A DNA stretch of 64,000 nt. It comes from Paenarthrobacter sp. A20. GTDB taxonomy: Bacteria > Actinomycetota > Actinomycetes > Actinomycetales > Micrococcaceae. The notes beneath the pieces are model-generated. The model had not been told where the DNA came from, did not search any database, and saw only the letters and a program-made list of their open reading frames with translations. The stretch lies in NCBI RefSeq assembly GCF_024168825.1, contig NZ_JALJWH010000001.1, positions 124,001 to 188,000 on the forward strand, given 5' to 3'. Both the position numbers and the translations under genes were made by a program. Below, piece after piece: positions 14,874 through 58,385 of this stretch. Within the stretch, counting starts at the first letter, position 1, and each line of letters starts with the position of its first letter.

Positions 14874-14967
14874 GCTTGGCTCCTGGTTTCCGTGGTTCTC
14901 GATGCGTTTCAGCGGTGGACCTGCTGTTGGGAGCGATTCTAGGGGGTGCCAGTGACAAGTCCGATGC

Positions 14968-15104
14968 TCTCTCACCTAATCACCCGTTTTCATCAACCAT
15001 CTCTCACCTGATCACCGCAGGGACGGCTGGAGGTGAGAGAGCGACCACCGAAAGCTAACGGAAGGTGAGAGAGGAACGGCCTTAAACCCGCGGAAGGTGA
15101 GAGA
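14968..15104. repeat. Array of a 10-bp motif with exact 32-bp spacing
   Basis: TCTCTCACCT occurs at 14968 and 15000, and its complement AGGTGAGAGA at 15031, 15063 and 15095. Same-strand neighbours are exactly 32 bp apart; the turn-around step is 31 bp. The 21-22 bp between motifs differ in sequence. The last copy ends 4 bp before the trpF stop. A second array of the same design is at 58258-58385. The opposing copies could form long-range hairpins. No known element is recognised. Confidence 0.85.
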
Positions 15105-20868: not shown

Positions 20869-21210
20869 GTCTTTCGGGCGGTGTCCAAGTGCGGACATCG
20901 GCCCCCGACGCCGGTTGGGCCAGGGGTTCGCCGAGGAAAAGTCAGGTGATCTACCGGTTCGCTGCAACAGCGGTGGCCGGGACCAAATAGAACGCGTTCA
21001 TCGACGCAGGATGTGCCTCTCACATGAAAAATGCCCCGTCGCGCAGCCTTTCAGGCCACCTGCTTCAGGGCGTCACCGCACATCAAGTGTTCCTAGCTTA
21101 GCAGTGTTTCCACGATGGACCCTCATCGGGGCAGCTCGGGGCCCTTCTTGTGGGGCCCGCTTTGCGCCCTTCCGGGCTCGCGAAGCGCGCAGAGCAGGCC
21201 CCACAACGGG
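20869..21210. other. Gene-free region: long helicase leader and a terminator-like palindrome
   Basis: I see no protein gene here. On the minus strand, TAAGCT near 21100 could be the -10 box of the helicase, giving a leader of roughly 220 nt. It contains small hairpins such as CCTGaagCAGG and GCCTgaaAGGC (about 21040-21070). The right part holds the palindrome at 21148-21208. Confidence 0.5.
21148..21208. repeat. Terminator-like palindromic repeat, copy 1
   Basis: Arms around TTGTGGGGCCCGCTTTGCGC and GCGCAGAGCAGGCCCCACAA pair with few mismatches. It begins 3 bp beyond the stop of the leftward MFS gene, so it probably ends that transcript. A related copy is at 27618-27679. Confidence 0.7.
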
Positions 21211-22611
21211 TCAGGAGTGGCGCGTGAGCTCGGGTTCAGCGCTCGAGGCGTCGGATTCGGATGCGGCAGCCCGGGCGGCGACGCGCGGCGCAATCAGAAC
21301 CCCGACGACGGCGATCACCGCCGTCAGCGCGAAGACCCCCGCAAACGAGTTCGTCGTCGTAAATGCAGCGAAGACGAGTCCCGTGGCGGCGAGGGACAGC
21401 GCGCCGCCGAGGGAATCGGAGATGGACATGGCGGCGCTGTTGAAACCTTGGTTTTCCGGGGTGGAAAGGGCCAACGTCATCACAGACAGCCTTGGGTACA
21501 TGAGCCCCATGCCGCCACCAGCCAGGATCCAACCAGCAATGGCCACGGACGCGGGCAGAGCGAACGCTGCGGTCACCAGGGTGGAGATCACGGCAATCAG
21601 CACCAGGGCAGCACCGACTTTCACGGCAAGGTCGTCGGCCAGCTTGGCGCCCAACCGCCCTTGGATGGCCGACGCTCCGGCCCACGCCAGCGCGGCACCG
21701 GTCAGTGTGAGCCCGGCGAACGTCGGCGTGAACGCGTAGCGCTCCGTCAGCAGGTACGGCAGGTACACCTCGGCCCCGAAGAATGCTGCCGAGGCAAGCC
21801 CGCGAACCAGGATCACGCTGGGAAGGCCGCGACGTGCAGTCAACGTTCCGCGCGGCACCAGCGGGCGGACAGCCACCAACGCAATGACAAGGGCGACGAC
21901 GGCGATCACCCCGCCCACGCCCGGCACCTCCGCGGACAGGTTCAGTCCCAGGACGGCCAAGGCTGCCAGCGCTGCCCATCCCATGCGACCGAAGGCCCAG
22001 GGGACGGGTTCGGCAGCGGGTTCGGAGTCCATTCCCCGCACAGCCGGAACCACCATCAGCAATGCCGGAACAACCAGCCCAACAACACCCAGGAACACCC
22101 AATGCCAGCTGCTGAGCTGGGCAACAACACCTGCCGCAAACGGGCCAACCAGGGAAGGGACCACCCAGGACGCGGCAAAGGCGGCAAAGATTTTAGGGTG
22201 CAGCGCCGGCGGGTACACGCGTGCCACCAACACGTAGAGGGCCACGGTCATCGCGCCGCCGCCCAGTCCCTGCACCAACCGTCCGAGCACCAGGATTTCC
22301 ATGGTTCCTGCCGTGCCAGCGATCAGCAGTCCCGCCACAAACAACGCCACGGAGGAGTACAGGGGCGCCGCCGGACCACGACGATCGGACCAGTTGCCCG
22401 CCGCCACCATGCCCATCACACCCGTTGCCAGCGGGCCCGCGAAGGCCAGTGCATACAGGCTGGCGCCGTCCAGGTCGCGGCTCACGAGCGGCATGATGGT
22501 GGTCACCGCGAGGGACTCGAACGCGCTGAGGAATACGAGCGCGCAAGCCCCCACGGTGGCGAGCAAGTATGGGCGGCGCAGTATCCCGGCCGTTGAGGTG
22601 TCAGAGGTCAT
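21211..22611 (-). CDS. MFS drug-efflux-type transporter, probable SoxR target
   Basis: A 466-residue transporter with 12-14 hydrophobic segments. It has the MFS loop motif NWSDRRGPAAPLY between helices 2 and 3 and LVLGRLVQGLGGG, a drug:H+ antiporter-2-like pattern. Its promoter has a SoxR-type operator in a 19-bp spacer (22619-22649), and soxR is divergent, so it is likely induced by redox-cycling compounds and exports them. The ATG at 22611 is 7 nt after the -10 box, so the mRNA is probably leaderless. The exported compound is unknown. Confidence 0.88.
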   Translation of the reverse strand: MTSDTSTAGILRRPYLLATVGACALVFLSAFESLAVTTIMPLVSRDLDGASLYALAFAGPLATGVMGMVAAGNWSDRRGPAAPLYSSVALFVAGLLIAGTAGTMEILVLGRLVQGLGGGAMTVALYVLVARVYPPALHPKIFAAFAASWVVPSLVGPFAAGVVAQLSSWHWVFLGVVGLVVPALLMVVPAVRGMDSEPAAEPVPWAFGRMGWAALAALAVLGLNLSAEVPGVGGVIAVVALVIALVAVRPLVPRGTLTARRGLPSVILVRGLASAAFFGAEVYLPYLLTERYAFTPTFAGLTLTGAALAWAGASAIQGRLGAKLADDLAVKVGAALVLIAVISTLVTAAFALPASVAIAGWILAGGGMGLMYPRLSVMTLALSTPENQGFNSAAMSISDSLGGALSLAATGLVFAAFTTTNSFAGVFALTAVIAVVGVLIAPRVAARAAASESDASSAEPELTRHS

Positions 22612-48154: not shown

Positions 48155-49302
48155 CAGAGCGAATCCTCCAGGACCACTCCAGCGAACCCTCGCGGTGCGC
48201 CCACGGATGATTCCCGGACAATGAGCTCCGGGTTCAAGTCAATGCGATGCACGGGGCGCATCCTTCCTTCGGCCAAGCGTGCCGCCATGAGCTGCACCGC
48301 CACCTTGCCGACGTAGCTTTTGGGAGGCCGAACCGCGGAGATGGCGGGCTCGGCAAGGTAGGCAACTTCGTCGTCGTATCCCACGATCGCCATGCTGCCG
48401 GGAACGTCCACGCCGCGGTCCACGCAGTGCTGCACGAACGCCACGGCCTGGGTGTCCGAATGCACCAGCATGGCGGTGGTCCCTGTGGAGCGGCACAGCT
48501 CCAGGACATGATCAAAGTGTTTCGAACGGTCCCCGTTGTCCAGCTTGGCCGAGTCCTCATGGATGGACTTTTCCAGCGGGATCTTCAACGCAGCGAGGGC
48601 CTGCTTCCAGCCACGGACCACATGCGGGCTGGTGGGACTGCTGGAATCGGTGAGGCAGCCAATCATCCGGTGCCCCTCCTGCCAGAGATGCCGCACGGCC
48701 ATCCCTGCGCCGAACGAGTGATCGGTCGCGACCCACTCGAGCCGGTGCGACGGGATCTCCAACGGCGCCCGGCGTTCGGCCATGATCACCGGAATGGGCA
48801 GGGCATTGAGCCACCTCAGCAACTCCTTGCCGTGCGTTCCACCCATGTCCGGGGCCACGATCAGCCCGTCGATGTTCTGGGTATCCAGCAGCGCCTGTAC
48901 CTGGCGGCGGTTGTCGGCGGCGTCGTACGCGGAGCCCCGGACCAGGATGCGGAGGTTCTGCACTTCGGCCTCGCCGCGGGCACCGGAAATCACTTGCGGC
49001 CAGTAGTAATCCAGCGAGGGCACCACCATGCCGATGGAGTAACTGTGTGCCGCCGGCCTCCCCACAGCCACCGAGCGATCCAACGGGCTGGGGAGCGTCG
49101 CGCCGCCGTGGACACGGGAGACCAATCCTTCGTCGGCGAGGGTGTTCACGTCGCGTCGGATGGTCAGCTCGCTGACGCCCAGTTTCGCCGCGATATCGCG
49201 GACGGTGATGGCTCCGTGTGCCCGCAACTCCTCCATGAGCCGTTCCCGCCGCTGCAGCGAAAACAACGATTTCCCGGCTTCCGGGCTTGATTCGTTAGTC
49301 AT
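48154..49302 (-). CDS. DeoR-HTH/LacI-type hybrid regulator
   Basis: A 382-residue regulator with mixed architecture. Residues 14-70 are a DeoR-family winged helix (LQRRERLMEELRAHGAITVR, then LGVSELTIRRDVNTLADEGL). The rest is a LacI/periplasmic-binding-like sensor (SIGMVVPSLDYYWPQVISGA, GLIVAPDMGGTH). It sits between the heparinase-like and DUF2264 genes, overlapping the former by 8 nt and the latter by 1 nt, so it is the operon's own regulator and probably also controls the divergent ABC transporter genes. The sugar inducer is unknown. Confidence 0.88.
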   Translation of the reverse strand: MTNESSPEAGKSLFSLQRRERLMEELRAHGAITVRDIAAKLGVSELTIRRDVNTLADEGLVSRVHGGATLPSPLDRSVAVGRPAAHSYSIGMVVPSLDYYWPQVISGARGEAEVQNLRILVRGSAYDAADNRRQVQALLDTQNIDGLIVAPDMGGTHGKELLRWLNALPIPVIMAERRAPLEIPSHRLEWVATDHSFGAGMAVRHLWQEGHRMIGCLTDSSSPTSPHVVRGWKQALAALKIPLEKSIHEDSAKLDNGDRSKHFDHVLELCRSTGTTAMLVHSDTQAVAFVQHCVDRGVDVPGSMAIVGYDDEVAYLAEPAISAVRPPKSYVGKVAVQLMAARLAEGRMRPVHRIDLNPELIVRESSVGAPRGFAGVVLEDSL

Positions 49303-51280
49303 TTGTGGCCTCCACTGTGAGGGTGAATGCGCCTGAAGCGCGGGTTTCTTCGGGCATGCGGAACCGGAGTCGGGTGAGCTTTTGGCCCCAGATGTCGCTG
49401 AGGAGCGGATCGTCCAGGTGCCATTCGTCTACGAGCACGACGGCGGTTGCCGGCTTCCAGCGCAGGTGCAGCCCCACGTGGCTGCTGACTGTCGGAATTC
49501 CGACAGAGGTGATGGTCGCCGTCGCGTCTGTACCCACGCGGACGGTGCCGGCAACCAGGTAGGTGATGTCGACGTCGTGGGTTCCTGCAGACTGGTGGGT
49601 TCCTACAGGCGGGGGCGCTGGCAGGTTCCAACGATCATCAATCACTACGGACCCGGGTTCGCGGTTCATCACTGAGGTGCGGATCCATTGCTCGGCGTCA
49701 CCCAGTCCGTAGGCGGCGCCGAGACCCAAAGCGAGAGTGGGCTCCTCTGTGGTGGGCTCCTGAAGGAGGACTGCGGCGAAGGAAGATCCTGTCCCCTGTT
49801 CCAGCCCGAAGGGTGCGGGGACGCTGTGCCAAGCGCTCTGCATCGCGCGGATCTGGTAGCGATCAGGTCCGAACGTTTGCGCCGTGTACGTGGGTTGGCC
49901 GGCATCGACGAGCAGGGGCACTCCGTCCACGGCGACCACGACGGAGCCGACGTCCCGGTGGTTGTGGTGCTCGCCGTTGTGCCCGCCCTTGGCCGCGAGG
50001 GTGAGCCCGTCCGTGGAACCGGGGTTCTGGCGGGCGACCATGATCTGCACCGAGGGCAGGTACGTCCCCCAACTAGGTCGCAGTAAACGTCCCAATGGAC
50101 CCTCAGTGCGACGTTTCCTGTCACCTAGTTGGGTGCGGGAGGCGAGTTGGGTGAGGACGCGGCCCAGGCCCGCCGCGGCGTTGGGTTCGGGTTCGACGGC
50201 GGCAAAGGCGGCGGCGTGCGCGGCGGCCTCGGAGTCGCCCAGCCGGACGGCCCAGCGATGCAGCATGCCCCACGGGAGTCCTTCATGCGCCCGGGCGGGG
50301 CCATCAGCGACGTTGAGGAACCAGCGGCCACCAAGGTGCATCCGGCTCGGGAAGGCAACCAGCGCGCGGATCACCGGCAGGTCCGGATTCAGGGCACCGC
50401 CGCTTGCTTCCTCCAACAGCGCAAGGCCTTCCAGCGCCCGGCCGGCCCCGTTCCACCAGTAAGCGAACCCTTCGTCGATGGCACCGTCTGCGGGAATGGA
50501 GGCGAGGAAGCGGTCCAGTCCCTCGATGCAGCGGGCAATAACCTGGGCCTGCCCATCAGGGTCATCAACCAGCAGCAAGGCCGCGGCGATGATGTTCGAG
50601 TGGATCCATGGGTTCCAGTTGTGGACGTCGCCGTGCAACCCCAGCCAGTGCCAGTCGAGCCGGTCCAGGAAGGGCCGAATGACGCGTTCGTTCGTCTCAA
50701 GCCGGATGCGCTTGCGGAGGCCAGGCGCCCTGTCATCAAGGGCATCTCCCAGCACCAGGTCCAGCCACGCGAGTTGGGCCACGACTTCCCCGGCGCCGAG
50801 GTCCAGATAGGAACGCGTGCGGTCCGGGACTACTTCGCCGTTGCGGGTGAACACGTCGTCGTGCGCCGCCCAGCTCCACGAGCTCTGCTCACAGAGAAGG
50901 TAGGCGCCGTCAATCACCTCGTCGAGCCAACCCGGCTCGCCCAGGGCTGCCATGACGACGGCGCGCGTCAGGCGCTGCTGCCGGCTCGCCACGAGCCCCT
51001 CGTACGCCGTGCGGTTGCCGTCGCGGAAGTACCGGGCGTAGTGGGACACGAGCGGTTGGGGCCAGGGTGTCCCCCGCTCCACGTCCGCTTGGGTGCGCAG
51101 CTCCGAGAGGGAACGTGAAGCAGCGAGCCGCCATCCGGCGTCGGACGCTGGACGAACGGTGAGCCGGTCCCGGGAGCCGCGGAGCGACTCGACCAGGGAG
51201 GGCTCGTTGGCCAACAGGCCCCAAGCGCTCCGTAGCGGGCGACGAGGTGGCGCTACAACGGCAGCGTTGCCGGTTGCCAT
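49295..51280 (-). CDS. Heparinase II/III-like protein with in-frame repeat insertion
   Basis: A 661-residue protein of the heparinase II/III-type polysaccharide lyase family. The N-terminal alpha/alpha-toroid includes HWLGLHGDVHNWNPWIHSNI. The C-terminal beta-sandwich starts near 420 and holds GGHNGEHHNHRDVGSVVVAV, whose His residues bind metal or substrate. There is no signal peptide, so it acts on imported oligosaccharides. Residues about 383-405 (TQLGDRKRRTEGPLGRLLRP) are encoded by a 66-bp palindromic repeat (50068-50133) between the domains, in frame and absent from family expectation. It is first in the operon; an 8-nt overlap joins it to the regulator. Confidence 0.85.
   Translation of the reverse strand: MATGNAAVVAPPRRPLRSAWGLLANEPSLVESLRGSRDRLTVRPASDAGWRLAASRSLSELRTQADVERGTPWPQPLVSHYARYFRDGNRTAYEGLVASRQQRLTRAVVMAALGEPGWLDEVIDGAYLLCEQSSWSWAAHDDVFTRNGEVVPDRTRSYLDLGAGEVVAQLAWLDLVLGDALDDRAPGLRKRIRLETNERVIRPFLDRLDWHWLGLHGDVHNWNPWIHSNIIAAALLLVDDPDGQAQVIARCIEGLDRFLASIPADGAIDEGFAYWWNGAGRALEGLALLEEASGGALNPDLPVIRALVAFPSRMHLGGRWFLNVADGPARAHEGLPWGMLHRWAVRLGDSEAAAHAAAFAAVEPEPNAAAGLGRVLTQLASRTQLGDRKRRTEGPLGRLLRPSWGTYLPSVQIMVARQNPGSTDGLTLAAKGGHNGEHHNHRDVGSVVVAVDGVPLLVDAGQPTYTAQTFGPDRYQIRAMQSAWHSVPAPFGLEQGTGSSFAAVLLQEPTTEEPTLALGLGAAYGLGDAEQWIRTSVMNREPGSVVIDDRWNLPAPPPVGTHQSAGTHDVDITYLVAGTVRVGTDATATITSVGIPTVSSHVGLHLRWKPATAVVLVDEWHLDDPLLSDIWGQKLTRLRFRMPEETRASGAFTLTVEATND
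50068..50133. repeat. 66-bp palindromic repeat inside a coding sequence
   Basis: Outer arms CCCAACTAGGT (50068-50078) and ACCTAGTTGGG (50123-50133) are perfect 11-bp inverted repeats, and inner arms AAACGTC/GACGTTT pair as well. The length, 66 bp, is 22 codons, so the reading frame of the heparinase-like gene is kept. It resembles intergenic palindromes rather than coding sequence. Confidence 0.85.
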
Positions 51281-54839: not shown

Positions 54840-55780
54840 TGACCAACATGGCCGAAGACCTCAAAGCCACTCACGTGACGGACGCAGCAGCGTTCCCGGA
54901 CGGGGCACCTACTGCGGAAGACCGCCGTCGAACCGACCGCAAACGCTCCCCGCGCGAACAGAAGAAGCGGACCGCGAACATCGTGATCTACGGTGTGCTG
55001 GTGGTCCTGGTGGCGGCGCTCATGGTGCCGTTCATCTGGATGCTTTCCTCGTCGTTGAAGGAGAACAACCAAGTCCTTACCGTTCCCATCCAGTGGATTC
55101 CGCAGGAGTTCGTGTGGAGCAACTACACGGACATCTGGACCCGCATCCCCATGATGGGCTACCTGCAGAATTCGTTGTACCTTGCCGTAATCATCACCTG
55201 TCTGCAGGTCCTCACGGGCTCGCTGGCCGCCTACGGCTTCTCGAAGGTCCGCTTCCCGGGCCGCGATGTCCTGTTCCTGGCCTACATCGGCACCATTGCT
55301 GTTCCGTGGCAGGCCTACATGGTGCCGCAGTACATCATGATGCAGAACCTTGGCCTCACCAACAGCTTCAACGCGTTGATTCTCCTGCAGGCATTCGGTG
55401 CCTTCGGCGTGTTCCTGATGCGCCAGTACTACATGACCATCCCGGACGAACTCTGCGAAGCGGCCCGCATCGATGGCCTGAGCGAATACGGCATCTGGGC
55501 ACGCGTCATCCTGCCACTGTCCAAGCCCGCCCTCGCCAGCCTGGCGTTGCTCACGTTCGTGAACACGTGGAACGACTACATGGGTCCGTTCATCTACCTC
55601 ACGTCCAACCGCCTCTGGACCGTCCAACTGGGCCTGCGGTCCTTCGTGGGCCAGTTCGACGCTGAGTACGCCATGATCATGACCGGCTCCGTGATCTCCG
55701 TGATCCCGATCCTCATCATCTTCCTCATCGGCCAGCGTTACTTCATCCAAGGCATCGCGACGAGCGGAATGAAAGGATGA
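54839..55780 (+). CDS. Sugar ABC transporter permease, second subunit
   Basis: A 313-residue MalG-type permease. A 35-residue charged cytoplasmic N-terminus precedes six helices. The EAA loop is CEAARIDGLSEYGIWARVIL, and the C-terminus has MTGSVISVIPILIIFLIGQR. It completes the importer with the upstream permease and solute-binding protein. Its stop overlaps the YesL-like gene by 4 nt (55777-55780). Confidence 0.93.
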   Translation: MTNMAEDLKATHVTDAAAFPDGAPTAEDRRRTDRKRSPREQKKRTANIVIYGVLVVLVAALMVPFIWMLSSSLKENNQVLTVPIQWIPQEFVWSNYTDIWTRIPMMGYLQNSLYLAVIITCLQVLTGSLAAYGFSKVRFPGRDVLFLAYIGTIAVPWQAYMVPQYIMMQNLGLTNSFNALILLQAFGAFGVFLMRQYYMTIPDELCEAARIDGLSEYGIWARVILPLSKPALASLALLTFVNTWNDYMGPFIYLTSNRLWTVQLGLRSFVGQFDAEYAMIMTGSVISVIPILIIFLIGQRYFIQGIATSGMKG

Positions 55781-58254: not shown

Positions 58255-58257
58255 CCC

Positions 58258-58385
58258 TCTCTCACCTAATGCGCCCTTGGCGCGGACCGTCTCTCACCTC
58301 CAGCGCCCATCCCCCAAACCCTCTATCACTTGCTTGAAAGAAGGGAGAGAGGGCCCGGCATAAACGGCCCAACGGTGAGAGAGGG
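58258..58385. repeat. Second array of the 32-bp-spaced 10-bp motif
   Basis: TCTCTCACCT occurs at 58258 and 58290, and a variant TCTATCACTT at 58322, all 32 bp apart. Opposite-strand variants AAGGGAGAGA (58341) and CGGTGAGAGA (58373) are also 32 bp apart. The layout matches the array at 14968-15104, with a shorter 19-bp turn-around step. It lies 4 bp past the GH35 stop. Confidence 0.85.

Follow-up and report, generated by a model that had tools for sequence, protein, structure and literature searches.

Among the dispersed repeats of genomes, MITEs are small inverted-repeat elements that encode nothing themselves and are not autonomous, and integron attC sites are defined by RYYYAAC...GTTRRRY core sites that go together with an integron integrase. 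REPs are palindromes of 20–40 bp that occur in many copies downstream of genes, are tied to RAYT genes, and in some cases provide stop codons (excerpts of PMC3733652 and PMC3116915). Rickettsia palindromic elements (RPEs) are found between genes and also fused in frame within protein genes (excerpts of PMC2229807 and PMC3733652); passages of PMC2229807 give lengths of 105–146 bp and intragenic insertions in 19 reading frames. In the mitochondria of Nematomorpha, long inverted repeats lie inside functional coding sequence (excerpt of PMC6649704).

Here we describe a family of 66-bp palindromes, one member of which is read in frame inside a gene in a 64,000-nucleotide stretch of DNA from Paenarthrobacter sp. 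A20 (the window). As a kind, the family stands with the REP-, RPE- and MITE-like palindromic repeats. The first-pass annotation had drawn a parallel with Rickettsia, and rightly so—a repeat-family element is read in frame inside a gene, as RPEs are—and the palindrome works like an RPE but probably belongs to a different family. What the two share is in-frame presence in a protein gene, here a single gene with the full element in 19 of 54 orthologue rows; measured against the RPE descriptions, the present family is set apart by its exact length of 66 bp, its other arm sequences, its genome-specific stem dialect, and a location inside an ORF for one copy in 43. The in-frame palindrome itself is less unusual than the way in which arms and stem are inherited separately. 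We think it probable that an ancestral in-frame copy sits in the linker of the gene and that its inner ~44 bp have been repeatedly overwritten by gene-conversion-like copying between copies.

A dispersed family of hairpins at gene 3′ ends

The palindrome occupies positions 50068–50133 and has the two perfect 11-bp arms first ascribed to it, CCCAACTAGGT and ACCTAGTTGGG. It lies wholly within a minus-strand ORF (49295–51280) and its 66 bp make 22 codons, which bears out the claim that it is in frame. The 661-aa product is called heparinase II/III-like from the names of its homologues and a weak Pfam match—Hepar_II_III_C at residues 429–487 (49820–49996, minus strand), located downstream of the palindrome within the gene. 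The earlier placing of the palindrome between two domains is plausible, but this match, which scores 20.9 bits against a cut-off of 24, is the sole Pfam sign of a domain. In the palindrome 25 of 33 positions are paired, and its folding beats 200 of 200 shuffles (z −4.4 as DNA and −5.3 as RNA). The element, to which no strand is assigned, comprises outer arms (element positions 1–11 and 56–66; 50068–50078 and 50123–50133), whose sequence depends on the chromosomal site rather than the genome, inner stem blocks (12–28 and 39–55; 50079–50095 and 50106–50122), which carry a genome-specific dialect, here type A, and a centre or loop (29–38; 50096–50105), where the genome signal is small. Just beyond the window edge, a hairpin of 67 bp (G000:C1:120592–120658; G000 is the genome of the window) has 27 of 33 positions paired and atypical ends, and is possibly a distant relative of the family. 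A different short direct repeat starting CTCTCTCACCTAAT has three copies in the window (14967–15009, 58257–58299 and 58289–58331).

Other copies, for which a search had been proposed, do exist: 36 places in the 5.38-Mb genome match a fixed-length pattern of 16 defined bases per end and 34 free positions (three mismatches or fewer allowed), against none for the reversed pattern used as control. With a covariance model trained on 26 copies the count is at least 43 places at E < 1e-5, a minimum, with 150 of 1145 candidates scored. All 36 pattern copies are on the main chromosome and none lies within 2.61–4.56 Mb (~39% of the chromosome), a region in which the covariance model finds one atypical place, at 4.01 Mb. 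GC skew over 20 samples was too noisy to be used for placing the chromosome origin.

By codon-score ORF calling, the heparinase copy is the one copy of the 43 found by the model that lies inside an ORF; an in-gene location is thus not typical of the family. Like REPs and REPINs, the family is extragenic and close to gene 3′ ends, with the heparinase copy as the exception: a gene 3′ end falls at −30 to +16 of the element boundary in 37 of the 43 copies, against 3.7% of 4000 random positions, and 15 of those 37 have gene 3′ ends on both sides. The stop codon lies within the element in 15 cases, at +9, +10 or +13, because frame f0 usually reads CCC AAC TGA, TAG or TAA. Frame f2, which the heparinase gene uses, is free of stops in 52 of 68, 44 of 78 and 20 of 26 orientations in three sets.

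The position at gene 3′ ends and the supply of stops resemble the GTAG REPs (PMC3733652, in excerpt), and GTAG is present here too, solely inside a frequent arm variant, CCCAAGTAGGT. REPIN-like transposition by a RAYT, a Y1 tyrosine transposase, is nevertheless very unlikely: the Y1_Tnp domain (PF01797) gave no match in the host genome and was not found in 20 of 21 genomes, G098 being the exception, and the control genomes were positive as expected. The element also differs from REPs and REPINs in being a single 66-bp hairpin, and at its ends the family has the conserved outermost bases CCCAAST...ASTTGGG in place of a GTAG or CGTC tag. With intrinsic terminators the family shares hairpins at gene 3′ ends, and some sites hold a different hairpin-like sequence in another genome (judged by eye); however, none of the 72 element ends of the 36 copies has a T-tract of five or more T in 8 nt after the hairpin.

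The family resembles MITEs in consisting of short inverted-repeat elements that are non-coding of their own, and departs from them in that target-site duplications are no more frequent than chance—of 36 copies, 31 have no flanking direct repeat, four have one of 2 bp and one has one of 3 bp, as at random positions. As to the core sites of attC, ACCCAAC/GTTGGGT agrees with many of the element ends (21 of 36 have A at −1 and 26 of 36 have T at +1), but CCCAAG is frequent as well. Inverted repeats are present, and an autonomous partner was not seen among 91 neighbouring ORFs, whose all-against-all comparison gave ten weak pairs only; the codon-score filter behind this comparison may miss genes of unusual composition. 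Two copies lie 1056 bp apart both in G000 (C1:2316429 and 2317485; L184) and in G287 (C1:1410806 and 1411862). Between the two in G000 is a 326-aa ORF, a candidate partner gene, whose product resembles a DUF559/AbiEi-type protein. A second close pair, with 1.9 kb between copies, was seen at G164:C1:2185063 and 2186925 (L223).

Matches at two mismatches or fewer occur in 14 of 197 genomes of the host's family and in three of 32 genera (nine of 12 genomes of the host's own genus, four of five of genus g28, and one genome of g26), with none for the reversed control anywhere; G039, G086 and G106 are among the relatives that gave no match. All 13 named genomes behind the orthologue loci hold copies, 8–74 each at three mismatches or fewer; among them are those of L081 and L083, in which the heparinase gene is without the palindrome though the family is present. 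Plasmids gave no match to an 82-bp query and viral contigs no exact pattern match; Rfam gave no match at E ≤ 1 around the window copy, and none at gathering score for eight loci with copies. No description of this family was found in searches of open-access papers, and a text search with six 11-mers of the family returned, among the matches listed, none on bacterial repeats; Arthrobacter livingstonensis appears in a table of PMC12306157. The family belongs to soil bacteria of the Paenarthrobacter/Arthrobacter type, and its copies normally sit right at gene 3′ ends.

Age and retention of the in-frame copy

The linker from GLGRVL to SVQIM was taken from 54 rows (32 from named loci, 21 from further genomes and one from the window), with some duplicates between the named and the further set. 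The full 66-bp palindrome is found in 19 of these rows (14 distinct sequences), and one further row, L276, has a palindrome with a 30-bp in-frame internal deletion, which speaks against an essential role of the palindrome in that gene. The first-pass annotation had expected the segment to be missing from some orthologues of related strains; it is missing from 34 of the 54 rows, but not within the Paenarthrobacter-type clade. Every sampled row of the clade around Paenarthrobacter carries the palindrome at the same place, one of them as a deleted remnant, and its entry is therefore ancestral. The palindrome predates these species and is not a fresh insertion, so the earlier suggestion of a recent movement into the gene finds no support. 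Nor do all orthologues carry the segment with a conserved sequence, as ancestral coding sequence had been expected to: its position is conserved and its sequence is not. What now varies at the heparinase site is the sequence of the stem.

It had also been proposed that the palindrome adds 22 codons to the gene, which the linkers do not bear out: they measure 38–50 aa with the intact palindrome and 34–57 aa without it, and since these ranges overlap, a net gain of 22 residues is not demonstrable. In trees of the combined and of the upstream flanks, the three palindrome-free rows included are set off from the rest by one branch (94/90 and 98/96); the downstream-flank tree does not group them and places L081, weakly supported, among the carriers. 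When the flanks are combined, the row nearest to this genome is that of Paenarthrobacter aurescens TC1.

Pairing has been preserved as the sequence varied: 372 of 462 cells are Watson–Crick, whereas 2000 re-deals of the right arms average 323.5 and reach 356 at most, in a control that ignores the relatedness of the rows. If the segment were ordinary ancestral coding sequence and its palindrome a coincidence, one would expect it in all sampled clade orthologues, with linker lengths like those of the outgroups, and both are seen; yet this explanation has almost no probability left, refuted as it is by the 36 genome copies (the family stands at no fewer than 35 other places) and by pairing that is maintained while the sequence changes. 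The coding palindromes of Nematomorpha differ—both arms there encode conserved protein regions, and here the setting is a variable linker and a dispersed family.

Sorted by eye, the 14 distinct heparinase-site sequences fall into three stem types, A, B and C, and six changes of type are required on the tree of 1,200 nt flanking the gene. The sharpest case is that of two sisters at 100/99, L074 from Arthrobacter sp. MYb23 (genome G199), which has type C, and L274 from genome G230, which has type A: they differ at 25 of 66 element positions, and their flanking windows are 89–98% identical right up to both element edges. A second pair of sisters at 100/99, L075 (type A) and L276 (a C-like remnant), also has unlike types. 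Gradual compensatory evolution at the heparinase site is rejected on account of the jump between L074 and L274, which successive compensating point mutations could hardly have produced. We also rejected the import of the palindrome within a longer tract; in this pair divergence does not rise beside the element.

Arms by site, stems by genome

The stem types are not spread evenly over genomes. In G230, 29 of the 34 copies listed at zero mismatches have type A in each half-site, and the 39 such copies in G199 comprise 26 B, 6 C, 5 A and 2 mixed. By eye, and among the copies listed, G202 is nearly all B (of 47), G200 is A in 9 of 10, G274 in 5 of 5, and G287 in 12 of 13 (23 exist); G205 is mostly C by eye, and G000 and TC1 are mixed. 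Six further genomes in the comparison had no copies among the matches listed. The heparinase copy matches the majority type of its genome in G230, G202, G200, G287 and G205, with the copy itself included in the counts of G230, G199, G202 and G200. In G199 it belongs to a minority type (C, with 6 of 39 copies), and in G274 the copy with the deletion is C-like against A in 5 of 5 copies listed; both are points against conversion between copies of one genome.

Within a copy, the half-sites are more alike than half-sites drawn at random from that genome (z 6.1 and 9.6). Template switching within one palindrome, in which a polymerase hops between the arms, may keep those arms alike; it is a known route for keeping stems paired (PMC8794818, in excerpt), and the arms are coupled here. 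As the sole process, with no exchange between copies, it is highly improbable, as it cannot give the dispersed copies of one genome a common dialect, and the inner stems have such a genome effect.

To compare copies site by site, ~140–370 kb around the gene were aligned from seven genomes, and sites, named here by their coordinates, were matched via both flanks. At the heparinase site G000, TC1, G230 and G287 have type A, G202 has B, and G199 and G205 have C. Intergenic site 54860 is also switched (D/C in G199, A in G230 and G287, B in G202), and each of the five genomes with a copy at site 207338 has type D there. Over 46 copies at 12 sites, the outer arms (1–11 and 56–66) have a site effect that none of 1000 shuffles reached, and a genome effect as low in 478 of 1000; for the inner stems (17–50) no shuffle in 1000 reached either the genome or the site effect. 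The genome effect of the inner stems remains at 3 in 1000 after the heparinase site and two old sites are left out. Position by position, the genome excess is found mainly at 12–28 of each half and is about zero at 1–11 and 29–33 (27 copies, five genomes); with all seven genomes (39 copies) the signal is weaker and its shape unchanged. Outer arms thus follow the chromosomal site, and inner stems follow both site and genome.

The footprint of the switches can be read from same-site pairs, of which those with an inner-block identity below 0.65 were called switched, a definition by threshold that we count against conversion. Outer identity is 0.87 in 39 switched pairs and 0.86 in 39 unswitched ones, over a background of 0.80; centre identity is 0.74, 0.91 and 0.73, respectively. 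On average, this is the footprint expected from replacing one contiguous inner segment with the arms retained. The fit is good at 102717, the heparinase site and 54860 (outer 0.90–0.98, centre 0.66–0.72) and poor at 871929 and 300724, where outer identity is 0.75, under background; in the switched pairs at 871929 and 1809094 the centre is retained (0.93 and 0.85). Given this unevenness, some sites may have changed their arms too, or their half-site blocks alone. In switched heparinase pairs the centre (50096–50105) is closer to the reverse complement of the other copy (0.80) than to its direct form (0.67), as would follow from an occasional inversion of the inner part at this site.

A DNA- or RNA-binding factor that reads positions 12–28 of each half, and whose specificity drifts between lineages, with selection pulling all sites, that of the heparinase gene among them, to a new dialect by point mutation, would account for a genome signal limited to those positions, for similar half-sites within a copy, for the centres kept at 871929 and 1809094, and for copies at gene 3′ ends. 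We consider it unlikely: it sits poorly with the 25 differences between L074 and L274 inside flanks that are 89–98% identical, with a centre at background in the switched pairs of three of the six sites that have switches, and with the mixed dialects inside one genome (G199).

Copies also come and go between close genomes. G199 and G230 are 93–97% identical in long matches, and of their three shared copies one is near-identical and two are stem-swapped; for three G199 copies unshared with G230, the counterpart is a near-clean empty site (23863), 21 bp of different sequence (942) or a terminator-like sequence (46179). Between G000 and TC1, the counterparts of three unshared copies are different, hairpin-like sequences of 77–89 bp, and 266751 faces ~1 kb; short gaps opposite some copies are also found in G000, TC1 and G287. 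That several unshared sites hold unrelated sequence in the other genome, and not a clean empty site, counts against conversion. At window positions 21166–21213, TC1, G199 and G202 have a type B copy and this genome has another hairpin-like sequence.

The unshared copies, the near-clean empty counterpart of 23863 and the short gaps are what one would expect if some transposase repeatedly removed an element precisely and put another into the same favoured site. We regard this as improbable, since full replacement would erase the inheritance of outer arms by site, and at 54860 G199 and G230 agree in the flanks and the outer 11 bp and differ in the inner stem; flanking direct repeats at no more than chance level in 36 copies also speak against it.

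Proposed exchange between copies and its meaning

Gene-conversion-like copying between copies is the reading that we favour, and its course may be sketched as follows. One family copy would have entered the heparinase linker, presumably by insertion, in the ancestor of the Paenarthrobacter-type clade; it would have used the element's usually stop-free reading frame and then stayed as coding sequence. Its inner ~44 bp would have been overwritten several times by the inner stems of other family members, with the outer 11-bp arms left in place, and the exact length of 66 bp would preserve the frame at every exchange. Copying within the genome is the likely cause of the type switches, and the simplest process would be one that works via annealing of the conserved arms or via single-stranded hairpins, an enzymology that we infer. 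Further points count against this account: the outer arms are very short homology for ordinary recombination, and no donor–acceptor pair of copies was identified for a stem exchange. A more tentative idea, to which we give distinctly less credence, is that dispersed hairpin cassettes trade their inner ~44 bp through a new kind of non-RAYT machinery, which would use the fixed outer arms for docking.

For dispersed palindromes in bacteria, it is usually difficult to distinguish homogenisation from transposition; site-specific outer arms and genome-specific inner stems in one family let the two be separated site by site. The copy in a conserved gene shows the exchange as a jump of ~20 linker residues between close strains, and the system offers a test bed for how hairpin repeats spread, keep their symmetry, and turn into coding sequence. 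If exchange by docking arms were true, the palindromes of each genome would evolve as a single population—and the heparinase gene would hold one socket, its linker rewritten in frame at each stem exchange.
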